From NCBI GenBank assembly GCA_017937065.1, contig JAGBEI010000014.1:1-64000 (forward strand): a DNA stretch of 64,000 nt, written 5' to 3'. Numbering within the stretch: the first letter of the stretch is position 1; the number at the start of each line of letters is the position of its first letter. The notes under the pieces were generated by a model. It was not told the DNA's origin and ran no database searches. It saw nothing but the letters and a program-made list of their open reading frames with translations. This document shows, piece by piece, positions 51,560-63,998 of the stretch. The position numbers were made by a program, and so were the translations under genes. This DNA is from Clostridia bacterium (GTDB taxonomy: Bacteria; Bacillota; Clostridia; Oscillospirales; QAKW01).

Positions 51560-53776
51560 TTATTCAAACATATTCTGCTGCAAGGGCTGCTCCAAGTCGC
51601 TGTCCCTTAAAAAGTGCCCGACGGCGGGAATTGCCTTTGTCCTGTAATAGTCGGTGTTTTTAATGCCAGCCTCTTTCGCTGCTTTGACTTCCGTCAGTGT
51701 GTTTTTGCCCTTTTGCGTAAACACAATCACGCCCTGCGTCGATTTGGTTGCTTTTACGGGAATAAGCGCGGTATTTATTATCAGCGCCTTGTTGTTGGAC
51801 GCTGTGAGCAGAAACTCGCAGTCCTCCCTGATAAATACCGCCCGCACAAGCGCAAATTTATCGCAGAAAGCGCCCACAAGCCTTTTGCGGTTGGTCTGTG
51901 TGCGGTACGCCGACACAGGCACCTTTGCCGCCCTGCCGTTTTCAAAGAAAAATATCATGTACCCGCTGTAATCAGACGTCGCCGCCATTGCCAGGACCGC
52001 CTCGTCCTGCTCCATGGACAGCTTTGCGGGCACATAGTCGCCCAGCGCGCTTGCCTTCGTGTCGTCAAACTCGCTCACGCGCGTTTTGTAAGCGCAGTGC
52101 ATATTCGTAAAAAATATCAGCTCCTGCGCGTTGCTGCTTTCAAAGCTCTGCCAAAGCCTGTCCCCGTCCTTGAAGCTCTGCGCGCTGTTCATTCTCAGCG
52201 ACTGCGGCGTTATCTTTTTGAAATATCCCTGCTCGGACAAAAACAGCGTAACGCCGTAATCCTCCACATGCTCCTCAATATCCGCCGCGTCATCCTGCTC
52301 GTCATAGACAAGCTCGCTTTTGCGCTCGCTCGGATACTGCTTTTTAATGCGCTTCAAATCCTCGATTATTATTTTGTGCTGCTTCTTCCTGTCCGCAAGC
52401 ACGCCCTCCAGCTGTGCAATTTCCGCCTTTAGCTGCTCGACTTCCTCCAGGCGCTTTAAAATATACTCGCGGTTTAAATGCCGCAGCCGGATGTTTGCGA
52501 TATATTCCGCCTGCACCTCGTCAATGCCGAAGCCTATCATAAGGTTAGGCACAACCTCGTCGTCATGCTCCGTCTCGCGCACAATTTTGACCGCCTTGTC
52601 GATGTCCAGCAAAATCGTCTGAAGTCCCTGTAAAAGATGCAGCTTTTCCCGCGCCTTGCCCAGTGAAAAGTACGTGCGCCGCTTTATGCACTCGGTGCGA
52701 AACGCCAGCCACTCGTCAATAATCTCCCTGACCGAAAGCACGCGCGGCACGCCGCCCACCAGTATATTGAAATTGCAGCCGAAGCTGTCCTCCAGCGGCG
52801 TCATTTTGTACAGCCGCGCCATGGTCTTGTCGGGGTCTGTCCCGCGCTTCAGCTCAATACGAATTTTAAGCCCCGACAGGTCGCTCATGTCCTTTACGTC
52901 GGAAATTTCCCTTAGCTTGCCCGCCTTTACAAGGTCTACAATCTTGTCGATTATCGCCTCAATGGTGGTCGTGTACGGGATTTCGGTGACGATAATGCTT
53001 CCCGATTTCTCGTCAATGCCGTACTTTGCGCGTATGCGCACGCTCCCCCGCCCTGTCGTATAAATCTGCTCGATGTCCGACTTGTTCATCAGAATCCGCC
53101 CGCCCGTAGAAAAATCGGGCGCGGGCATGGTCAGCGCAAAATGGTGTTCGGGGTTTTTGAGGTACTCAATGACCGTGTCGCACACCTCGGCGAGATTGAA
53201 CGAACAGATGTTCGACGCCATGCCGACCGCAATGCCCTGATTTGGCGTTGTAAGTATCGTCGGGAACGTGACGGGCAGCAGCGACGGCTCGGTCGTCGAG
53301 TTGTCGTAGTTGGGCACAAAATCCACCGTCTGCTTGTCGATATCGTCAAACAGCTCGCGGCAAATCGGCGCCAGTCCCGCCTCGGTGTAACGCGATGCGG
53401 CATACGCCATGTCCCGCGAATAATATTTTCCAAAATTTCCCTTTGAATTAATAAACGGATGCGGCATCGCCTCATACCCGCGCGTCAGCCGCACCATCGT
53501 CTCGTAAATCGCGCTGTCGCCGTGCGGGTTGAGCTTCATTGTAGCGCCGACGATGTTGGCACTCTTCTGCCGCCCGCGCAAAAGCCCCATGCCGTACATG
53601 GTATACAACAGCTTGCGGTGCGCGGGCTTCAGTCCGTCGATTTCGGGAATCGCGCGCGACATGATAACGCTCATCGCATACGGCATGTAGTTGGTTTCCA
53701 GTGTCTGCGTTATCGGTCTCGGTATCGGCTCGCAGTAAACGTATTCTTTTTGTACAGATTTTTTCTTTTTTGCCAT
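51560..53776 (-). CDS. parC: DNA topoisomerase IV subunit A (ParC-like)
   Basis: This 738-residue type IIA topoisomerase breakage-reunion subunit has catalytic Tyr130 in AASRYTEAGL. The quinolone-determining segment NPHGDSAIYETM has the usual Ser and acidic residue. The C-terminal region is a shorter, degenerate propeller than in GyrA, consistent with a decatenase. It pairs with parE, upstream with a 247-nt gap. Confidence 0.9.
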   Translation of the reverse strand: MAKKKKSVQKEYVYCEPIPRPITQTLETNYMPYAMSVIMSRAIPEIDGLKPAHRKLLYTMYGMGLLRGRQKSANIVGATMKLNPHGDSAIYETMVRLTRGYEAMPHPFINSKGNFGKYYSRDMAYAASRYTEAGLAPICRELFDDIDKQTVDFVPNYDNSTTEPSLLPVTFPTILTTPNQGIAVGMASNICSFNLAEVCDTVIEYLKNPEHHFALTMPAPDFSTGGRILMNKSDIEQIYTTGRGSVRIRAKYGIDEKSGSIIVTEIPYTTTIEAIIDKIVDLVKAGKLREISDVKDMSDLSGLKIRIELKRGTDPDKTMARLYKMTPLEDSFGCNFNILVGGVPRVLSVREIIDEWLAFRTECIKRRTYFSLGKAREKLHLLQGLQTILLDIDKAVKIVRETEHDDEVVPNLMIGFGIDEVQAEYIANIRLRHLNREYILKRLEEVEQLKAEIAQLEGVLADRKKQHKIIIEDLKRIKKQYPSERKSELVYDEQDDAADIEEHVEDYGVTLFLSEQGYFKKITPQSLRMNSAQSFKDGDRLWQSFESSNAQELIFFTNMHCAYKTRVSEFDDTKASALGDYVPAKLSMEQDEAVLAMAATSDYSGYMIFFFENGRAAKVPVSAYRTQTNRKRLVGAFCDKFALVRAVFIREDCEFLLTASNNKALIINTALIPVKATKSTQGVIVFTQKGKNTLTEVKAAKEAGIKNTDYYRTKAIPAVGHFLRDSDLEQPLQQNMFE

Positions 53777-54023
53777 ATTTTTACTCCAAAAGAAGTTTTT
53801 AACAAATTATAATTATTGTGGACAAACAATGTGGGGCATAGCGCAAAACGACGGGAACATACTGGGCTTTGCGCCGGCTAACGCAGCCGCAAATCGTGTA
53901 TATATTTTCCGTAAGGCTTTGCGCCTCTGCTGCAAGCCGCAAATCACGCTCTGCAGAATATCATTGCGCTGCGGCATACAGTCTGCGCAAAATGCCGGCA
54001 GACACGCGCGCTCCGCCTTAAAA
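53777..54023. other. Gap between parE and parC without a clear gene
   Basis: This 247-nt stretch is GC-rich and has the near-repeat GGCGCAAAGCC/GGCTTTGCGCC. A leftward 85-residue frame crosses it (53813-54070) but overlaps the parE end and has no ribosome site. I see no promoter or RNA gene. Confidence 0.4.
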
Positions 54024-56006
54024 TCAGGATAAGTCCACGTCGTCCAGATACTTATAGCCGTTGTCGGCAATAAAGTCCTTTCTGCCCTGGAGATTGTCGC
54101 CCAGCAGAATGTCGAACATCTGCGCGGTCGCCTGCGCGTCGTCGGGGGTCACCTTGATAAGCCTCCGCGTTTCGGGGCTCATGGTGGTAAGCCACATCAT
54201 GTCCGGCTCGTTCTCACCCAAGCCCTTGGAGCGCATGACCGTGCACTTTTTGCCGCTGTGAGAAGCGACGATTTCGTCCTTGTCTCTGTCCGACCACGCA
54301 AACAGCGGCGCGTCCAGCCCCTGCACCGTTATTTCAAACAGCGGCGACTCTGCAATGTATACATATCCCTGCTCGATAAGGCTGGGCGTTAACCGATACA
54401 GCATCGTCAAAATCAGCGTACGTATCTGAAACCCGTCCACGTCCGCGTCGGTGCAGATGATTACCTTGTTCCAGCGCAGATTGTTTATGTCAAAATTTTG
54501 TAAATCTTTGGTATTTTTGTTTTTAATTTCCACGCCGCAGCCTAAAATTTTAAGCAGGTCAACGATAATGTCGTTTTTGAAAATCTTGTCGTACTCCGCT
54601 TTCAGGCAGTTGAGGATTTTGCCGCGCACCGGCATAATCGCCTGAAAAAATGAGTCCCTGCCCTGCTTGCAGGAGCCGAGAGCCGAGTCGCCCTCGACGA
54701 TATACAGCTCGCGCTTTGAAACGTCCTTTGTCTCGCAGTCGACAAATTTCTGTATGCGGTTGGTGATGTCCAGCGAGCCGGACAGCGTTTTTTTGATGTT
54801 GACGCGCTCGCGCTCGCTCTTTTCGCGCGCGCGCTTGTTAATCAGTATTTGGTTTGCGATTTTCTGCGCGTCAAGCTTGTTTTCGATGAGGTAAATTTTC
54901 AGGTTGCGGCGCAGAAAATCGGTTGTGCACTCTTGGATAAATTTGTTAGTAATTCCTTTTTTTGTCTGATTTTCATAGCTTGTCTGGGTGGAAAAGCAGT
55001 TTGAGACGTAAACAAGACAGTCGGCTATGTCCTGAAAGGTGATTTTCGCCTCGCTCTTGTTATACTTGCCCTCTTGTTTTAGATATGCGTCAAATTCCGC
55101 CACAAATGCGGAGCGCAGAGCCTTGTCCGGTGCGCCGCCGTGCTCCAAAAAGCTGGAGTTGTGGTAGTATTCTATAAGGTTTGCGGTGTTGGAAAAGGTG
55201 AACGCGCAGGACAGTCTGACCTTGTATTCGGGCTTGTCCGCACGGTCGCGCCCGCGCCGCTCGTCCTCCCACATGATGACGGGTGTCATCGCGCTGTCCC
55301 CCGCCGTTTCGGCAATATAATCGGAAATGCCGTTTTTATAATGGAATTCTTTGGTAACAAATCCATTTTCTGTCTCGTGGCGGAAAATAAAGGTCACGCC
55401 CGCGTTGACAATCGCCTGTTTTTTGAGAATATCCTCAAAATATTCGGGCTCAATGGAAATATCTGTAAATACCTCAAGGTCGGGTTTCCAGCGGGTGACG
55501 GTGCCTGTGCGCCTGCCCGACACGTCCTCCTCGTGCAGACCGCCGACGTTTTCGCCCTTTTCAAAGCGGAGGGTGTATTTTTTGCCGTCGCGGTAGACGG
55601 TGACGTCCATGTATTCGGACGAGTACTGCGTGGCGCACGCGCCCAGACCGTTAAGTCCGAGTGAATATTCGTAGTTTTCGCCTGAGATGTTGTTGTATTT
55701 TCCGCCCGCGTACAGCTCGCAGTAGACGAGCTCCCAGCTGTACCGCCCCTCTTTGCTGTTGTAGCCGACGGGGCAGCCGCGCCCGAAGTCCTCGACTTCG
55801 ATGGAGTGGTCGGCAAAGGCGGTGAGAATGATTTTGCTGCCGTAGCCCTCTCTTGCCTCGTCGATGGAGTTGGATAAAATTTCAAAGGCGGAGTGCTTGC
55901 AGCCCTCCAGACCGTCCGAGCCGAAGATGACGGCGGGGCGTTTGCGCACGCGGTCTGCGCCTTTGAGGGAGGTTATACTTTCGTTGTTATAATTGTTTCG
56001 GGGCAT
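54024..56006 (-). CDS. parE: DNA topoisomerase IV subunit B (ParE-like)
   Basis: This 660-residue GHKL ATPase has LSNSIDEAREG (Asn of the N-box), VEDFGRGCPVGYN (G1), a transducer domain, and the TOPRIM motif VEGDSALGSCKQGRD with PVRGKILN. It is of the clostridial ParE type, distinct from GyrB at 62073. It has its own promoter (56059-56087). It pairs with the ParC subunit downstream. Confidence 0.9.
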   Translation of the reverse strand: MPRNNYNNESITSLKGADRVRKRPAVIFGSDGLEGCKHSAFEILSNSIDEAREGYGSKIILTAFADHSIEVEDFGRGCPVGYNSKEGRYSWELVYCELYAGGKYNNISGENYEYSLGLNGLGACATQYSSEYMDVTVYRDGKKYTLRFEKGENVGGLHEEDVSGRRTGTVTRWKPDLEVFTDISIEPEYFEDILKKQAIVNAGVTFIFRHETENGFVTKEFHYKNGISDYIAETAGDSAMTPVIMWEDERRGRDRADKPEYKVRLSCAFTFSNTANLIEYYHNSSFLEHGGAPDKALRSAFVAEFDAYLKQEGKYNKSEAKITFQDIADCLVYVSNCFSTQTSYENQTKKGITNKFIQECTTDFLRRNLKIYLIENKLDAQKIANQILINKRAREKSERERVNIKKTLSGSLDITNRIQKFVDCETKDVSKRELYIVEGDSALGSCKQGRDSFFQAIMPVRGKILNCLKAEYDKIFKNDIIVDLLKILGCGVEIKNKNTKDLQNFDINNLRWNKVIICTDADVDGFQIRTLILTMLYRLTPSLIEQGYVYIAESPLFEITVQGLDAPLFAWSDRDKDEIVASHSGKKCTVMRSKGLGENEPDMMWLTTMSPETRRLIKVTPDDAQATAQMFDILLGDNLQGRKDFIADNGYKYLDDVDLS

Positions 56007-56058
56007 GTTTTAAGTCCTTTTTATTTACTGAATGTAATATTTATTGTATAATATACTT

Positions 56059-56087
56059 ATTGTAACTTATTTTTGCGGTCTGTGCAA
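56059..56087 (-). promoter_or_regulatory. Promoter of parE
   Basis: On the minus strand, TTGCAC (56082-56087), a 17-nt spacer and TACAAT (56059-56064) lie about 50 nt before the ATG. Confidence 0.6.
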
Positions 56088-56152
56088 TATTATACTATTT
56101 TAAAATCATGTTGTCAAATATGGTATACTCATTTCATAATCTGTTGCTTTGA

Positions 56153-56181
56153 TTGACAATATTAATCAAATATTTTATAAT
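56153..56181 (+). promoter_or_regulatory. Consensus promoter of the methyltransferase
   Basis: A perfect TTGACA (56153-56158), a 17-nt spacer and a perfect TATAAT (56176-56181). A strong promoter for the methylase fits early protection against the partner endonuclease. Confidence 0.85.
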
Positions 56182-56232
56182 ATAAATAGTATTAGCTAAC
56201 GGTGAGCAGGTCAAGTAAGGAAGGATTTATAT

Positions 56233-57510
56233 ATGACTGAACATAAAATAATATTCGGCGATAGTCGTTCGCTGAATCAAATTTCGGATAAAGCCGTGCA
56301 GTTGATCATAACCTCGCCTCCGTATTGGCAATTAAAAGATTACGGAACAGAAGATCAAATCGGCTTTAATGACAGTTATGAGGAATACATAAATAACCTT
56401 AACCTTGTTTGGAAAGAGTGCAATCGTGTTTTAGCCGATGGCTGCAGACTTTGTATAAATATCGGGGATCAATTTGCCCGCTCTGTGTATTATGGCAGAT
56501 ATAAAGTTATTCCTATTCGAACTGAAATAATTCGTTTTTGTGAATCGTTAGGCATGGATTATATGGGTGCCATTATTTGGCAAAAGCCCACCACAATGAA
56601 CACTTCCGGCGGCGGTGCAGTTATGGGCAGCTTTCCGTATCCCCGAAACGGAATACTAAAAATGGATTATGAGTTTATTTTGATATTTAAGAAATTGGGA
56701 AACGCACCTAAACCGACCCCCCAGCAAAAAGCTGATTCAAAAATGACTAAAGAGGAATGGAATCAGTACTTTTCGTCGCATTGGATTTTTAACGGAGTAA
56801 AACAAATGGGACACATTGCGATGTTTCCCGAAGAGCTGCCCAAACGATTAATTAAAATGTTTTCTTTCGTTGGCGAAACCGTTCTTGATCCGTTTGCCGG
56901 AAGCGGTACTACGTCTTTAGCGGCTAAAAATTTAGGCAGAAACTCAATAGGATATGAGATAAATAAAACTTTTGCGCCTATTATCAAGGAAAAGCTTTGT
57001 GCCGACCAATTAAGTATATATGATAATAATTCACAAATTACTTTTCTTGAAGATAATGAAGGGATAAAGCATACATTTGAAGATTTGCCGTATCTGTTTT
57101 GTGACCCACATAAAATGGATAAAAAGGTAGATATTGGAAAACTGCAGTTTGGTTCAAGGATTAACAATAATAAACAAAAACCCAAAAGCCTTTTTACAGT
57201 GAAAAACGTATTAAGTGCAAATACAATAGAGCTCAACAACGGTCAGATTGTTAAACTCTTAGGTATAAAGCCCATACCCCAGTATGAAGCTGAAGCGATA
57301 AACTTTTTGCAAAATATATTCAGAAAAAGGAAAGTTTTTTTAAAGTATGATTCAGAAAAATACGACAGCAAAAGCGAGCCGTTATGTTATGTATACCTTG
57401 ACAACAAAACCTTTGTAAATAACCATTTGGTCAGAACAGGATATGTCAATGTCGATACTGATAACGAATATAATTGTAAGAAAAAATTTTTAGCTTCTAT
57501 CCCGGTATGA
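56233..57510 (+). CDS. Type II DNA methyltransferase (beta-class) with C-terminal SNase-like domain
   Basis: This 425-residue protein has catalytic motif IV TSPPYW at residues 27-32 and SAM motif I DPFAGSGTT at 219-227. That order gives the beta class, and SPPYW is typical of N4-cytosine methylases. The C-terminal 135 residues (VLSANTIELNNGQIVKLLGI, then VYLDNKTFVNNHLVRTGYVNVD) have the layout of a staphylococcal nuclease fold, but its catalytic Arg and Glu are not evident. It probably protects the site cut by the MjaI-like enzyme encoded convergently downstream. The ribosome site is AAGGAAGG. Confidence 0.85.
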   Translation: MTEHKIIFGDSRSLNQISDKAVQLIITSPPYWQLKDYGTEDQIGFNDSYEEYINNLNLVWKECNRVLADGCRLCINIGDQFARSVYYGRYKVIPIRTEIIRFCESLGMDYMGAIIWQKPTTMNTSGGGAVMGSFPYPRNGILKMDYEFILIFKKLGNAPKPTPQQKADSKMTKEEWNQYFSSHWIFNGVKQMGHIAMFPEELPKRLIKMFSFVGETVLDPFAGSGTTSLAAKNLGRNSIGYEINKTFAPIIKEKLCADQLSIYDNNSQITFLEDNEGIKHTFEDLPYLFCDPHKMDKKVDIGKLQFGSRINNNKQKPKSLFTVKNVLSANTIELNNGQIVKLLGIKPIPQYEAEAINFLQNIFRKRKVFLKYDSEKYDSKSEPLCYVYLDNKTFVNNHLVRTGYVNVDTDNEYNCKKKFLASIPV

Positions 57511-57512
57511 AA

Positions 57513-57538
57513 TAGGCGGAGGTGCAAACCTCCGCCTA
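57513..57538. terminator. Bidirectional terminator between methylase and endonuclease genes
   Basis: An 11-bp perfect stem, TAGGCGGAGGT with 57528-57538, has a 4-nt loop between convergent genes. Confidence 0.85.
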
Positions 57539-57541
57539 AAT

Positions 57542-58135
57542 TTATTCCTCGACTTCAATAGTTAAGCCTGCTTTCTTTTTTGTATAATAGATCATATTTA
57601 CTTTGATATCCTCCGACAAGCGCCGCATGGTTTTGTATGTATCAGGCTTTATAGAATATGCGGTTTTTCCGACATACCCGTCAATTCCACGGGCTTCTTC
57701 CTCAGGATTGGCTAATCTGTAATTCTCTCCCCTGATTTCAGCAAGTTTACACAGAATTGCCTTCTGAACATACAATCCGTTATATGTTTTAGAGATGACC
57801 AAGTCCTCCACCCATTTTTGAATCATTTCCCTGTCAATCAGCTTAATGGCTTCCTTCAGATTTTCCACCTGAGCAAAAATTCTGTTTGTTGCCTCTTCAA
57901 TAGCTTTCGGGTAATGCTCTAAATACCAGCTTCTCCAACTGTCAACAGAAACCGTATCACAGCTTCTTTCGTATTCGGGGAACAGCTCGGAGAGCTGACC
58001 GACTACTCGCGGGCGTGTTCCCTGCGCATTTTGATTTGCCCAGTTAATCAGCTGGGACGTGTATTTGGGAAAATTTGGATTTTCGCTGCCGTTAAGGGTT
58101 ATTATTTCCTCGTTTTTAATTGTAAATTTCATCAT
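57542..58135 (-). CDS. MjaI-like type II restriction endonuclease
   Basis: This 197-residue protein resembles the RE_MjaI family. The N-terminal YTSQLINWANQNAQGTRPRVVGQLSELFPEY is the recognisable segment, with GTRPxxVGQ. A later GIDGYVGKTAYSIKP could be the PD-(D/E)xK catalytic core. MjaI cuts CTAG, so CTAG or a related target is a reasonable guess. It is convergent with the methylase. The family call is from recall of the signature, not a search. Confidence 0.72.
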   Translation of the reverse strand: MMKFTIKNEEIITLNGSENPNFPKYTSQLINWANQNAQGTRPRVVGQLSELFPEYERSCDTVSVDSWRSWYLEHYPKAIEEATNRIFAQVENLKEAIKLIDREMIQKWVEDLVISKTYNGLYVQKAILCKLAEIRGENYRLANPEEEARGIDGYVGKTAYSIKPDTYKTMRRLSEDIKVNMIYYTKKKAGLTIEVEE

Positions 58136-58252
58136 TTTGTACCTTTAAAGTTTTTTGTTATTATTTTCTGCACTTAACAAGTCAACATTCTTATTATCTC
58201 TATAACTTCTCATGATTTAAACAGATTTTTCTCTCATATATAATTGACATAA

Positions 58253-58462
58253 TCAATTTAATCTGCGAAATGTTGGTATAAGCCCTAAAATATAATCCGC
58301 AGACACATTATAATACTTACAAAATATGATTAATATATCACTCGGCAATACGCGAAGCCCATTTTCATAACGCTCATATGATTTTTTTGAAATGCAGGCA
58401 ATTTCAGCACATTCCCGCTGTGTCAAATCGTTATCTTCTCGCAAGTCTCTCAATCTATTCAT
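58253..58462 (-). CDS. XRE regulator, tandem copy A
   Basis: This 69-residue Cro/CI-type protein (RLRDLREDNDLTQRECAEIACISKKSYERYENG) ends in YNVSADYILGL. It is a close paralogue of the next gene upstream, with about 45 of 69 residues shared by eye. A dyad TATAGAC-N6-GTCTATA covers its TATAAT -10, implying autorepression. The ribosome site is GAGGG. It is 117 nt from the endonuclease gene and may control it. Confidence 0.82.
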   Translation of the reverse strand: MNRLRDLREDNDLTQRECAEIACISKKSYERYENGLRVLPSDILIIFCKYYNVSADYILGLIPTFRRLN

Positions 58463-58496
58463 GCTATCCCTCTGTATAGATATTTCTTATTGACAT

Positions 58497-58545
58497 TATA
58501 GACAGTTTGGTCTATAATAAAACCAAAAATAGACCATATAGTATA
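58497..58545. promoter_or_regulatory. Operator-like sites 1 and 2 (TAGAC-N6-GTCTA)
   Basis: Site 1, TATAGACAGTTTGGTCTATA (58497-58516), is a perfect dyad overlapping TATAAT on the minus strand. Site 2, TAGACCATATAGTATA (58530-58545), is an imperfect copy that matches site 3 in the opposite direction. Confidence 0.65.
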
Positions 58546-58552
58546 TTAGCAT

Positions 58553-58762
58553 TCAATATAATTTCCTAAATTCATTAATTAACCCCAAAACATAATCTGC
58601 TGAAACATTATAATATTTGCAAAACTTTATCAAAACGTCAGTGGGCAATACATTTTGACCATTTTCGTATCTCTCATATGATTTTTTTGAAATATAAGCT
58701 ATCTTTGCGCATTGTTCCTGCGTCAAATTGTTATCCTCTCTTAAATCTCTTAATCTATTCAT
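58553..58762 (-). CDS. XRE regulator, tandem copy B
   Basis: This 69-residue Cro/CI-type protein (RLRDLREDNNLTQEQCAKIAYISKKSYERYENG) is nearly the same as copy A and 300 bp from it, a clear tandem duplication. It has its own upstream region with operator-like sites 3 and 4, shared with the divergent XRE gene at 58866. It may bind the same sites as its relatives. Confidence 0.82.
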   Translation of the reverse strand: MNRLRDLREDNNLTQEQCAKIAYISKKSYERYENGQNVLPTDVLIKFCKYYNVSADYVLGLINEFRKLY

Positions 58763-58799
58763 AGCTATTTCTCTTTCTTAATCTCAGTTACTTATAATA

Positions 58800-58845
58800 T
58801 AGTCTATATGGTCTATTTTGTGTGAAAATTAGACTATTTAGTCTA
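58800..58845. promoter_or_regulatory. Operator-like sites 3 and 4 in the divergent XRE intergenic region
   Basis: Site 3, TAGTCTATATGGTCTA (58800-58815), is the reverse of TAGACCATATAGACTA and nearly equals site 2. Site 4, TAGACTATTTAGTCTA (58830-58845), has perfect 7-bp arms. They lie between two divergent XRE genes. Confidence 0.65.
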
Positions 58846-58865
58846 CAAAAATAAAAAGGAAAAAA

Positions 58866-59096
58866 ATGGAACTTCGTTTAAAAGAAATAAGAATACAATA
58901 CGGTTTTACAAAAAAAGAAATCGCCGATATAATCGGCGTTTCAATTATAAAATATTTTCTTTACGAAAATAAACTTTTAAAAATAAATGCAAATGAATTA
59001 ATAACTCTAAGTCAACATTTCAACATATCCATTGATTACGTAATAGGCTTGTCAGACGAATGTAAACCACTATACGGAGAGGATAATCTATCATGA
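58866..59096 (+). CDS. XRE regulator C (divergent)
   Basis: This 76-residue XRE protein (RLKEIRIQYGFTKKEIADIIGVSIIKYFLYENK) ends in ISIDYVIGLSDECK. It is encoded divergently from copy B. It shares the C-terminal N(V/I)SxDYVxGL signature with copies A and B. The ribosome site is AAGGA. It overlaps the next gene by 4 nt (ATGA). Confidence 0.8.
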   Translation: MELRLKEIRIQYGFTKKEIADIIGVSIIKYFLYENKLLKINANELITLSQHFNISIDYVIGLSDECKPLYGEDNLS

Positions 59097-59311
59097 ATAA
59101 TACTATACGTTTAAAACAAATCCGCAAACAAAACCACATGACACAAAATCAGGTCGCAGAGGCGGTCGGGCTTTCAACGCGCCACTATCAAAAGCTCGAA
59201 AATTTGCAGTCAGACATCAAGCTCTCACAAATTGTAAAATTCTGTAAATTTTTCAATGTCAGCATCGCCTATTTTTTAGGCGAAACAGACGAATTTACAA
59301 CCTACTATTAA
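59093..59311 (+). CDS. XRE regulator D
   Basis: This 72-residue Cro/CI-type protein (RLKQIRKQNHMTQNQVAEAVGLSTRHYQKLENLQ) has the ending NVSIAYFLGETDEF. It is translationally coupled to regulator C by an ATGA overlap. Together the four XRE proteins form a regulatory cluster beside the MjaI-like system, possibly left from a prophage or a plasmid-like element. Confidence 0.82.
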   Translation: MNNTIRLKQIRKQNHMTQNQVAEAVGLSTRHYQKLENLQSDIKLSQIVKFCKFFNVSIAYFLGETDEFTTYY

Positions 59312-59345
59312 ACACAAAACCGACATGAAATGGGGCTTTTACTTT

Positions 59346-59483
59346 ATGGACAACGAAACAGAAAAGCTCATAAAGCTCTCGGAGGAATTGCTCGCGGTGG
59401 AAAACGACAGAAACGCGGGCATTTTCGGCTGCACGCTTGACGAGCTAAAAAAGCATCTTGACACTGTAATTGAACAGAGCTGA
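59346..59483 (+). CDS. Small hypothetical protein after the XRE pair
   Basis: A 45-residue frame begins MDNETEKLIKLSEELLAVEN and is acidic and helical throughout (TLDELKKHLDTVIEQS). An in-frame ATG seven codons earlier is possible. Neither start has a strong ribosome site. It lies 34 nt after regulator D and ends just before a terminator. Confidence 0.45.
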   Translation: MDNETEKLIKLSEELLAVENDRNAGIFGCTLDELKKHLDTVIEQS

Positions 59484-59493
59484 TTTTTCCATT

Positions 59494-59526
59494 AAAAAAC
59501 ACACGGAAAATTTCCGTGTGTTTTTT
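59494..59526. terminator. Bidirectional terminator before gyrA
   Basis: A 16-bp perfect palindrome, AAAAAACACACGGAAA with 59511-59526, has T-runs on both sides. It ends both the XRE transcript and the gyrBA transcript. Confidence 0.9.
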
Positions 59527-59546
59527 ACTTCATTATTATATATATA

Positions 59547-62048
59547 CTATTCCGCTGTCAACTCCGCGCTCTCGTCCGCTTTTTCAGCCTCCGCGCTCTC
59601 CTCCTTCTCGGTGCGCGAAATATCAATAATCCGCACGCCCTCCTCCAGCCGCACAATCCGCACGCCCTGGGTAGTCCGCGAAATTACCGGAATTTCACTC
59701 ACCGCAGTGCGCAGCACAACGGCGCCCGACGTCAGCAGCAGTATATCGTTATTATCGTCAACGACGCTTATCGCCGCGATTTCTCCCGTCCGCTCGGTGA
59801 TGTTATAATTCATAATGCCCTTGCCGCCGCGCGTCTGCATTCTGTATTCCGAAATCGCGGTGCGCTTTCCGTAGCCCTTTTCGGTGACGGAAAGCAGCGT
59901 CGCGTTTTCCCGCTCAACCGCCATTCCGACAACATAATCGTCATCGTCCAGGCGTATTCCGCGCACACCGCGCGTCACCCTGCCCATGCTGCGCACATCG
60001 TTTTCATTAAACCTAATCGCCTTGCCGCAATGGGTTGCCAGAATTATATTATCGTCCCCCGTCGTGCGCACAACGGACTTCAGCTCGTCGCCCTCATCCG
60101 TTATAATCGCAATCACGCCGCTTTTGCGGATATTGGCATAATCCATTATCGGCGTTTTCTTTACCGTTCCGTTTCGCGTTGACATAAGCATGTACTCGCC
60201 GTCGTTGAACTCGCGCACGCGAATCATGGACGTGACCTTTTCTCCCGACATGAGCGGCAGCAGGTTTATAACATTAGTACCCTTTGAAAACCGCGAGCCT
60301 GCCGCTATCTCAAAGCCGCGGCTTTTATAGGCGCGCCCCAGGTTGGTAAAAAACAAAATCGTATCATGCGTCGAGCCGACAAACATCTCGCGGACAACGT
60401 CCTCCTGCTTGGTGGTCATGCCGCGCACGCCCACGCCGCCGCGGTGCTGCGAGCGGTACTCGGAAACGGCAATTCTCTTGACATATCCCGCGTTTGTCAG
60501 CGTAAACACGCAGTCCTCAACGGGAATCAAGTCCTCGTCCTCAATTCCCACCTCGCCGACGCCGATTTCAGTGCGGCGCGCGTCACCGTACTTGCGTTTG
60601 ATTTCCAAAAGGTCGGTCTTTATTATCTCAACCACGCGGCTGTCATGCGCCAAAATGTCCTCCAGCTCCGCAATTTTCTGCTCAAGCTCGGCGTATTCGC
60701 TTTCAATCTTGTCGCGCTCCAGACCGGAAAGCTGACCCAAACGCATATCCACAATCGCCTGCGCCTGCACGTCGTCCAGCTCAAAGCGCTCCATAAGCGC
60801 CGTTTTCGCATCGGTTATAGACTTGCTCTTTTTGATTATCTCTATAACCTCGTCGATATAGTCAATCGCCTTTATGAGACCTTCCAAAATATGGGCGCGG
60901 GCGCGCGCTTTTGCAATATCAAACTGCGTGCGGCGGATAATGACGCTTTTTTGGTGCTTTACATACTCGGACAGAATTTCCTTGAGGTTGAGCACGCGCG
61001 GCACGTTATTTACAAGCGCTATCATTATCGCCGAGCAGGTCACCTGCATATCTGTGTATTTATATAGCTGGTTTAGGACAACCTGCGGGTTTGCCTCGCG
61101 CTTCAGCTCGACAACAAAGCGCAGTCCGTCCTTATCGCTCTCGTCGCGGATATCGGAAATGCCGGATATACGCTCGCCCTTAACCTCCTCCGCTATCTTC
61201 TCGATAAGCGCGCTTTTACGGATACCGTAGGGTATCTCAGTCACGGCAATTCTAAAGCGCCCGTCCTTATACTCCTCGATTTCCGCCTTGGCGCGGACAT
61301 AAATCTTGCCGCGGCCCGTGCGGTAGGCGTTGCGGATACCCGTCTTGCCCATGATTATGCCGCCCGTCGGGAAATCGGGGCCTTTTATGTATTCCATAAG
61401 CCCGTCGATATCAAGCTCGGGGTTTTCCATCAGCGCGATGGTACCGTCGATAACCTCGTTTAGATTATGCGGCGGAATTTCGGTCGCCATGCCGACGGCA
61501 ATGCCCGACGAGCCGTTGACAAGCAGGTTGGGAAAGCGCGCCGGCAGCACCGACGGCTCCTGTCCCTTATCGTCAAAGTTGGGCACGAAATCAACCGTGT
61601 CCTTGCGGATATCGGTCAGCATTTCCAGCGCGATTTTTTTCATGCGCGCCTCTGTATAACGGTAAGCCGCGGGCGGGTCGCCGTCAATCGAACCGAAGTT
61701 GCCCTGTCCGTCAACAAGCGGATAGCGCAGAGAGAACGTCTGCGCAAGGCGCACCATGGCGTCATAAACCGACGCGTCGCCGTGCGGATGGTAATGACCC
61801 AGCACGTCGCCGACTGTTGTAACCGATTTCCTGTAAGGCTTGTCGGGGGTAAGCCCCGCCTCAAACATTGTATAGAGTATGCGGCGGTGAACGGGCTTCA
61901 GTCCGTCGCGCACATCGGGCAGCGCGCGGCTGACAATAACGCTCATCGCGTAGTCCAAAAACGCGCTGCGCACCTCTTTTTCAACGTCAATTTCAATGAC
62001 GTTCTGACCCTCAAAGCTTATTTCACTGCTGTGTTTAACTTCTTCCAT
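59547..62048 (-). CDS. gyrA: DNA gyrase subunit A
   Basis: This 833-residue gyrase A subunit has catalytic Tyr131 in [11 protein letters not shown] full C-terminal propeller includes the GyrA box-like QTRGGKGI segment, which wraps DNA for negative supercoiling. The quinolone segment reads [12 protein letters not shown], with Ala92 where E. coli has Ser83 and Asp96 where it has Asp87. The tail is acidic ([21 protein letters not shown]). It is 24 nt after gyrB, in one operon. Confidence 0.95.
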
Positions 62049-62072
62049 TTTTATCTCCTAAACCGACGGTAA

Positions 62073-63998
<1,926 letters not shown>

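Follow-up and report, generated by a model that had tools for sequence, protein, structure and literature searches.

Four small genes for XRE-family regulators lie side by side in the window, by which we mean the whole 64,000-nucleotide stretch of DNA that was analysed. Genes A (58253..58462) and B (58553..58762) occupy the minus strand and encode putative 69-aa repressors with the same recognition helix, SKKSYERYE, and genes C (58866..59096, 76 aa, helix SIIKYFLYE) and D (59093..59311, 72 aa, helix STRHYQKLE) occupy the plus strand. The first-pass annotation had listed four small XRE genes, and all four open reading frames are indeed present, with products that match HTH_3 and HTH_19 above the Pfam curated cut-offs (A also matches HTH_31). 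It had also described C and D as a divergent pair, which they are not: both read in the same direction, sharing 4 nt (ATGA), and it is this operon, headed by C, that is divergent from B. Further along the plus strand is small ORF E (59346..59483; 45 aa from an inner ATG, or 52 aa from 59325), possibly the last gene of the C-D operon, and a terminator-like hairpin (59493-59527) lies 3' of it. On the other side of the cluster are genes for an MjaI-type restriction endonuclease (R, 57542..58135, minus strand; RE_MjaI PF09568, E 2.1e-67) and a DNA methyltransferase (M, 56233..57510, plus strand; N6_N4_Mtase, E 1.4e-46), neither of which we judge to be part of the circuit proposed below.

The AlphaFold2 model, made for B only, has a mean pLDDT of 93.4 and displays a five-helix XRE domain (helices at residues 4-10, 15-21, 26-33, 41-51 and 55-58), with KKSYERYE as the 26-33 helix. 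Attempts to follow the cluster through orthologs of C, D and E gave weak matches or none. In 365 genomes of the order, C (E ≤ 1e-10) returned its own match and matches of 35-41% identity in five others, and D (E ≤ 1e-15) was found in its own genome only; the phage and plasmid matches of D, in 61 phage and 11 plasmid records, are below 60% identity. ORF E matches no Pfam or NCBIfam family and, among 49 genomes at E ≤ 1e-4, occurs only in its own. Inside gene C, at 58905-58938, is a promoter-like TTTACA-17-TATAAT sequence (11/12) with its -10 box within the palindrome CGCCGAT-ATA-ATCGGCG. It may serve D as an internal promoter/operator, or may have arisen by coincidence from the coding sequence.

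The A-B gap (90 bp) and the B-C gap (103 bp), 193 bp in total, each hold two dyads with at most one mismatch to TAGAC-N6-GTCTA. Putative operator site 1 (TAGACAGTTTGGTCTA, 58499..58514) is a perfect match, and site 2 (TAGACCATATAGTATA, 58530..58545), 31 bp away, has one mismatch. Putative site 3 (TAGTCTATATGGTCTA, 58800..58815) also has one mismatch and borders candidate -10 boxes of B and C, and site 4 (TAGACTATTTAGTCTA, 58830..58845), again perfect, lies 30 bp from site 3 and 20 bp before the start codon of C. These are the four dyads reported in the first-pass annotation, whose coordinate of 58497 for the first includes two flanking bases. Chance is ruled out as their source by shuffling and by a genome count. 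Among 20,000 dinucleotide shuffles of both gaps (mean 0.011 sites), 220 had at least one site and none reached four, nor did any of 2,000 shuffles of the region 58136-59545 (mean 0.019 sites). Allowing two mismatches, the motif is not enriched over the whole window (17 places versus 14.3 expected, with 30 of 100 shuffles reaching 17), and one further place with one mismatch occurs in the window, at 55594. In the 1.91-Mb genome, the 12-base form TAGACYNNNNRGTCTA is matched with at most one mismatch at five places, four of which are sites 1-4 and the fifth of which lies inside an ORF on another contig. The dyad motif is thus uncommon in the genome, given that the reversed pattern, used as a control, occurs at 22 places. 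The longer TATAGAC-N6-GTCTATA, with up to two mismatches, occurs at 12 places versus 17 for its control; site 3 is among them and only site 1 is perfect. Any regulon of the dyads is local.

Genes A and B are a tandem duplication, as had been proposed. Their proteins are 78-79% identical, and the DNA is 71% identical over 228 nt with a period of 300 bp, within which sites 1 and 3 recur at 301 bp. The duplicated unit was therefore operator plus gene, ~300 bp in all. By position, the duplicate sites are 1 and 3, and 2 and 4. Over 21 nt, sites 2 and 3 show 90% complementarity, in keeping with the earlier description of them as nearly identical in opposite orientation.

Which of the four proteins would read the dyads? 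Helix 3 of XRE proteins contacts bases, as in the 434 and P22 repressors. PMC4321490 describes helix 3 base contact in C.Csp231I as well. We compared helices with upstream sequences across the family, which is broad: 179 of 394 genomes of the order have a match at E ≤ 1e-17. A genome scan with B gave 157 relatives, the best 80 of 157 being taken as loci; family and order scans gave more loci, and viral contigs gave 54 and 1. Collecting XRE genes from loci L025-L288 by a fixed helix spacing yielded 191 pattern matches, reduced to 180 when two registers of one gene were merged, and to 179 when one with <150 bp upstream was dropped. This table excludes the own-genome loci L001-L024 and includes A, B and D via L109; C is outside it because the search pattern does not match its sequence.

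The helix SKK[ST]YERYE occurs in six genes of the table, namely A, B and one in each of four other loci (L028, L029, L040 and L045). All six have the dyad (at most one mismatch, at most 260 bp upstream) and none of the 173 others does. Without the window genes, the association is 4/4 versus 0/173 (Fisher p 2.5e-8), although these four may represent two lineages, since L028 and L029 are alike, as are L040 and L045. The TAGAC motif originated in the window and was tested on the other loci, and the dyad conservation that the first-pass annotation had put forward as a check was found with A/B-type proteins at four places outside it. With an upstream limit of 200 bp, the same six genes have a dyad. 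At 300 bp, D and the XRE gene divergent from the A/B-type gene of L045 also reach dyads, because divergent genes share the array, and C, being divergent from B, has sites 3 and 4 upstream. Position alone therefore cannot tell which protein binds.

Other helices go with other dyads, counted at up to two mismatches: TACYCC-N4-GGRGTA in 14 of 16 [SG]KNSYIRYE genes, GCATTC-N4-GAATGC in 7/7 of the TRQQYQLYE type, ATATCC-N4-GGATAT in 7/9 of the TQPQYYRYE type, TACAAC-N4-GTTGTA in all five genes of the HKTTYTNYE type and TATCTC-N5-GAGATA in all six of the RQNTYSQYE type. These rates for the non-TAGAC motifs are optimistic because the motifs were read off the very sequences counted. Off the diagonal, counts per motif were 0 or 1 within classes and ranged from 0 (TAGACC) to 8 in the mixed group of 119; no class motif was found for the SQTMYARYE genes (n = 11). 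The half-sites of five helix classes have a CAT-like inner part in common (TAGACCAT, TACCCCAT, GCATTCAT, ATATCCAT, TACAACAT) and differ in their outer bases. Spacing between sites in the SKK[ST]YERYE class is 30 and 31 bp in the window, 25 and 23 bp in L040 and L045, and 48-49 bp in L028 and L029; in the other tabulated classes it is mostly 23 to 33 bp, the exceptions being the TQPQYYRYE type, at 56-57 bp, and one gene each at 51 and 79 bp. The window lacks the third, gene-proximal site of L040 and L045. Scanning the class (391 genomes, E ≤ 1e-27) turned up no SKK[ST]YERYE member beyond the window, and none of 68 viral stretches with TAGACCANNTGGTCTA has the A/B helix. Four phage records among the B matches have other helices and no TAGAC dyad; two of them have a perfect dyad with 6-bp arms upstream.

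The association of helix with operator makes the four dyads very probably the operators of A and B. We judged C and D unlikely as the main readers, since their recognition helices differ and, in this family, dyads change along with the helix. The first-pass idea that all four regulators share the sites is accordingly retained for A and B, with their SKKSYERYE helix, and is not supported for C and D. In the lambdoid CI/Cro switch, divergent regulators face operators that extend across both promoters. The window likewise has divergent regulators and dyads over both promoters, and a lambda-like circuit in which A/B (CI-like) and C/D (Cro-like) repress each other from the same four dyads would suit this layout and the possession of HTH_3/HTH_19 domains by all four proteins, as well as the placement of C directly behind sites 3 and 4 and the XRE gene that is divergent from the A/B-type gene in L045. 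Unlike CI and Cro, however, C and D are not expected to read the dyads, and the repressor with its operator is tandemly duplicated. Given the helix differences, we consider mutual repression improbable. What stands of the compact cross-repressing circuit proposed in the first pass is a repressor circuit, which is the best reading; the backing for cross-repression by C/D is positional.

Promoter P+ (58490..58518, plus strand) is a perfect sigma-A type sequence, TTGACA-17-TATAAT (12/12), that points antisense into B and towards C. Site 1 overlies it, bearing out the earlier observation that the dyads lie in promoters with one across a TATAAT box. In fact, site 1 joins two opposed TATAAT boxes, as it is the core of the longer palindrome ATTATAGAC-N6-GTCTATAAT. 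The 64-kb window contains four perfect TTGACA-17-TATAAT promoters versus 0.01 expected, and two of the other three are upstream of the parE-like and methyltransferase genes. Two perfect TTGACA-17-TATAAT promoters stand back-to-back at 56089-56181, in the gap that separates the parE-like and methyltransferase genes. Promoters reading towards A and B have weak -35 boxes (at most 8/12). A has kept the perfect divergent promoter; only a 9/12 version is left in the B gap, and the 11/12 match of B falls inside C. No plus-strand terminator was called from P+ to the start of C.

A strong promoter divergent from the repressor gene recurs in the family, and within the operator array it is perfect (12/12) in L028, L029 and L040 and scores 10/12 in L045. 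Across five helix classes (RQNTYSQYE was left out of this comparison), a divergent promoter of 11-12/12 lies within 200 bp upstream in 28 of 41 genes besides A and B, a raw count without shuffle control; towards the XRE gene, no promoter in those classes exceeds 10/12.

So, does the cluster time the nearby restriction genes, as the first-pass annotation suggested? A lies upstream of R on the same strand, separated by a 117-bp gap, and no terminator was called between them, so a read-through transcript from A to R is possible. The endonuclease occurs in 10 of 394 genomes of the order, the window's included, and we took one R locus from each of the other nine (L110-L118), excluding second matches (L119, L120). 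In seven of the nine, a small XRE gene of a different type, the C protein gene of the MjaI-type family, lies upstream of R (the query source L112 and six at 79-93% identity); L115 is cut by the contig end, and L117 is without the upstream C-type gene. A controller-like protein, MDIVKVFG...HRTYIS, is encoded upstream of R in L110-L114, L116 and L118 and is absent from the window's system. No copy or remnant of this canonical C gene was found in the window by tblastn at E ≤ 1, and its matches in the window's genome are only 33-39% identical.

A, with or without B, might have replaced the missing C protein, with R expressed by read-through from a promoter of A that is autoregulated via sites 1 and 2. 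The place of A and B upstream of R, where the C gene sits in seven of nine relatives, would fit such a replacement, as would the lack of a called terminator between A and R and the geometry of the sites: the window's 16-bp sites with 14-15 bp between them resemble the 15-bp C.Csp231I sites (CTAAG-N5-CTTAG), for which PMC4321490 gives a separation of 18 bp. A weak promoter of its own, however, is called before R (TTTAAA-17-GATAAT, 9/12), the A-R gap contains no dyad with up to two mismatches, and neither R nor M has a match (tblastn E ≤ 0.01) in the four other loci that combine the helix with the operator. Of ten larger ORFs from those loci, none matches a restriction or methylase family in Pfam; they are housekeeping genes, a sigma factor or unmatched. 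The TAGAC dyad, in turn, is found in none of the nine R loci of the relatives. The restriction-modification genes and A/B therefore occur separately elsewhere, as the first pass had proposed looking for, and we regard the replacement of the C protein as unlikely. Control or timing of the restriction genes by the cluster is not supported.

The B model has the same fold as C proteins such as C.Csp231I, C.AhdI and C.BclI (4jcy, 1y7y, 2b5a), known controllers of restriction-modification systems. As in their systems, small XRE genes precede a restriction gene in the window, and there are two dyads per promoter region. The dyads are nevertheless TAGAC-N6-GTCTA and not the C-box GACTTATAGTC, the common-class operator as given in PMC4321490; the GACT...AGTC arms of site 4 are separated by a 4-bp centre, versus 3 bp in the common C-box of that source. 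The C protein of the MjaI-type family is also a different gene. RptR, the repressor of a type I restriction island, is another small regulator beside restriction genes, but the abstract of PMC12255303 describes a type I association and a minimal site, TAGCTA, that differs from the dyads of the window.

The restriction-modification genes have features of their own. The C terminus of M has a Staphylococcal-nuclease-like match (PF00565, 24.5 bits versus a cut-off of 21). Methyltransferase ORFs of 423-424 aa are present in L110, L111, L113, L116 and L118, which suggests that M of the relatives may likewise carry the SNase-like match. In L111, a second RE-like gene (872-1504) with a 36% match to R lies beside it, and in L112 (2109-2776) and L114 (813-1480) two short ORFs beside R look R-like by eye.

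The cluster, M and R form an AT-rich block (22-41% GC per piece, 47% for E) between parE-like and gyrA genes of 52-55% GC. The window has two adjacent type IIA topoisomerase sets at 51560-63986, read from the ORFs as gyrB, gyrA, then parE-like and parC-like. In the same-genus locus L150, gyrA is followed by the parE-like gene with no such block genes between; of the two remaining same-genus loci, L151 stops shortly past gyrA, and in L152 another gene occupies that position. The composition of the block, its absence from this junction in L150 and the 9/12 divergent promoter of B are what one might expect of a decayed phage or integrative-element remnant with no current regulatory role. Against decay, the four ORFs are open, the operators and one perfect promoter are intact, and, by ORF reading, the block encodes M, R and A-E only, without a transposase, integrase or rep gene. 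We assign the remnant explanation a small chance.

The cluster resembles the repressors RstR of inoviruses and ImmR of ICEBs1. Neighbours of B in sequence or fold include PezA, ICEBs1 ImmR, P22 c2, CylR2, 434 Cro, the C proteins and an HTH protein known from work on arbitrium phages. B matches 145 phage records, including 75 Streptococcus phages and 15 'bajarodino' viruses, and its best annotated phage matches are genes of small inoviruses annotated 'repressor protein'. For each of A, B, C and D, phage_RstR of the Inoviridae ranks first or second among NCBIfam matches, although their NF041951 scores (37.1, 47.3, 37.0 and 47.0 bits, respectively) are below the cut-off of 80. Unlike RstR, B is divergent from an XRE gene, C, and not from phage replication genes (rep); the repressor of the window is duplicated, and the cluster is without adjoining phage genes. 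ICEBs1 ImmR is the second-best relative of solved structure by sequence (7t8i, E 6.6e-8) and a fold match as well, but no integrative-element genes were seen in the window, and A and B, at 69 aa, comprise little beyond the DNA-binding domain.

What lies opposite the A/B-type gene varies among the four related loci. L040 is inovirus-like: the A/B-type gene, with its operators, faces away from a 61-aa ORF and a Rep gene, beyond which comes a Zot-like gene. In L045, the closest divergent gene that could be recognised is another XRE gene. L028 (3429-4859) and L029 (3481-4911), from MAGs labelled Oscillospiraceae and Ruminococcaceae, have divergent genes for 476-aa proteins (WG repeat; BspA-type LRR) whose N termini look, by eye, like signal sequences, a hint that the repressor-operator unit might switch surface proteins on and off. 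Since the divergent genes differ, the repressor-operator unit seems to act on more than one kind of target.

Returning to the window, we consider it likely that A and B are tandem phage-type repressors acting at the four dyads, where they repress themselves and C-D(-E), with P+ running antisense through B. A dimer of A or B would read each dyad through the helix KKSYERYE, and the 30-31 bp between paired dyads, about three helical turns, would allow pairwise binding. Site 1 covers the A promoter's TATAAT together with part of P+, the strong divergent promoter, and sites 3 and 4 lie over the weaker candidate promoters for B and C. As the sites overlie the promoters of A, B and C as well as P+, we infer that A/B repress themselves and the divergent C-D(-E). 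Through the duplication, B came to stand between P+ and C-D-E, so that a P+ transcript should run antisense across B. If repression failed, this transcript should continue through B into C-D-E, turning B down and C-D-E on. A bolder extension, which we regard as speculative and somewhat doubtful, is that duplication of operator plus repressor, by setting P+ antisense first to B and then reading into C-D-E, generated a bistable interference switch and, more broadly, that nine helix residues predict the operator.

Overall, the cluster has the look of an ordinary phage-style switch in a new arrangement. In a limited literature search, we found no description of the TAGAC operator or of a helix-operator table for this small XRE family. 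The window offers a clean case for how the joint duplication of a repressor and its operator alters a switch, and illustrates that proximity of a small XRE gene to a restriction gene does not by itself make it the controller. The table of helix versus operator, which is nearly block-diagonal, provides testable predictions for small repressors of many Clostridia and some filamentous phages.
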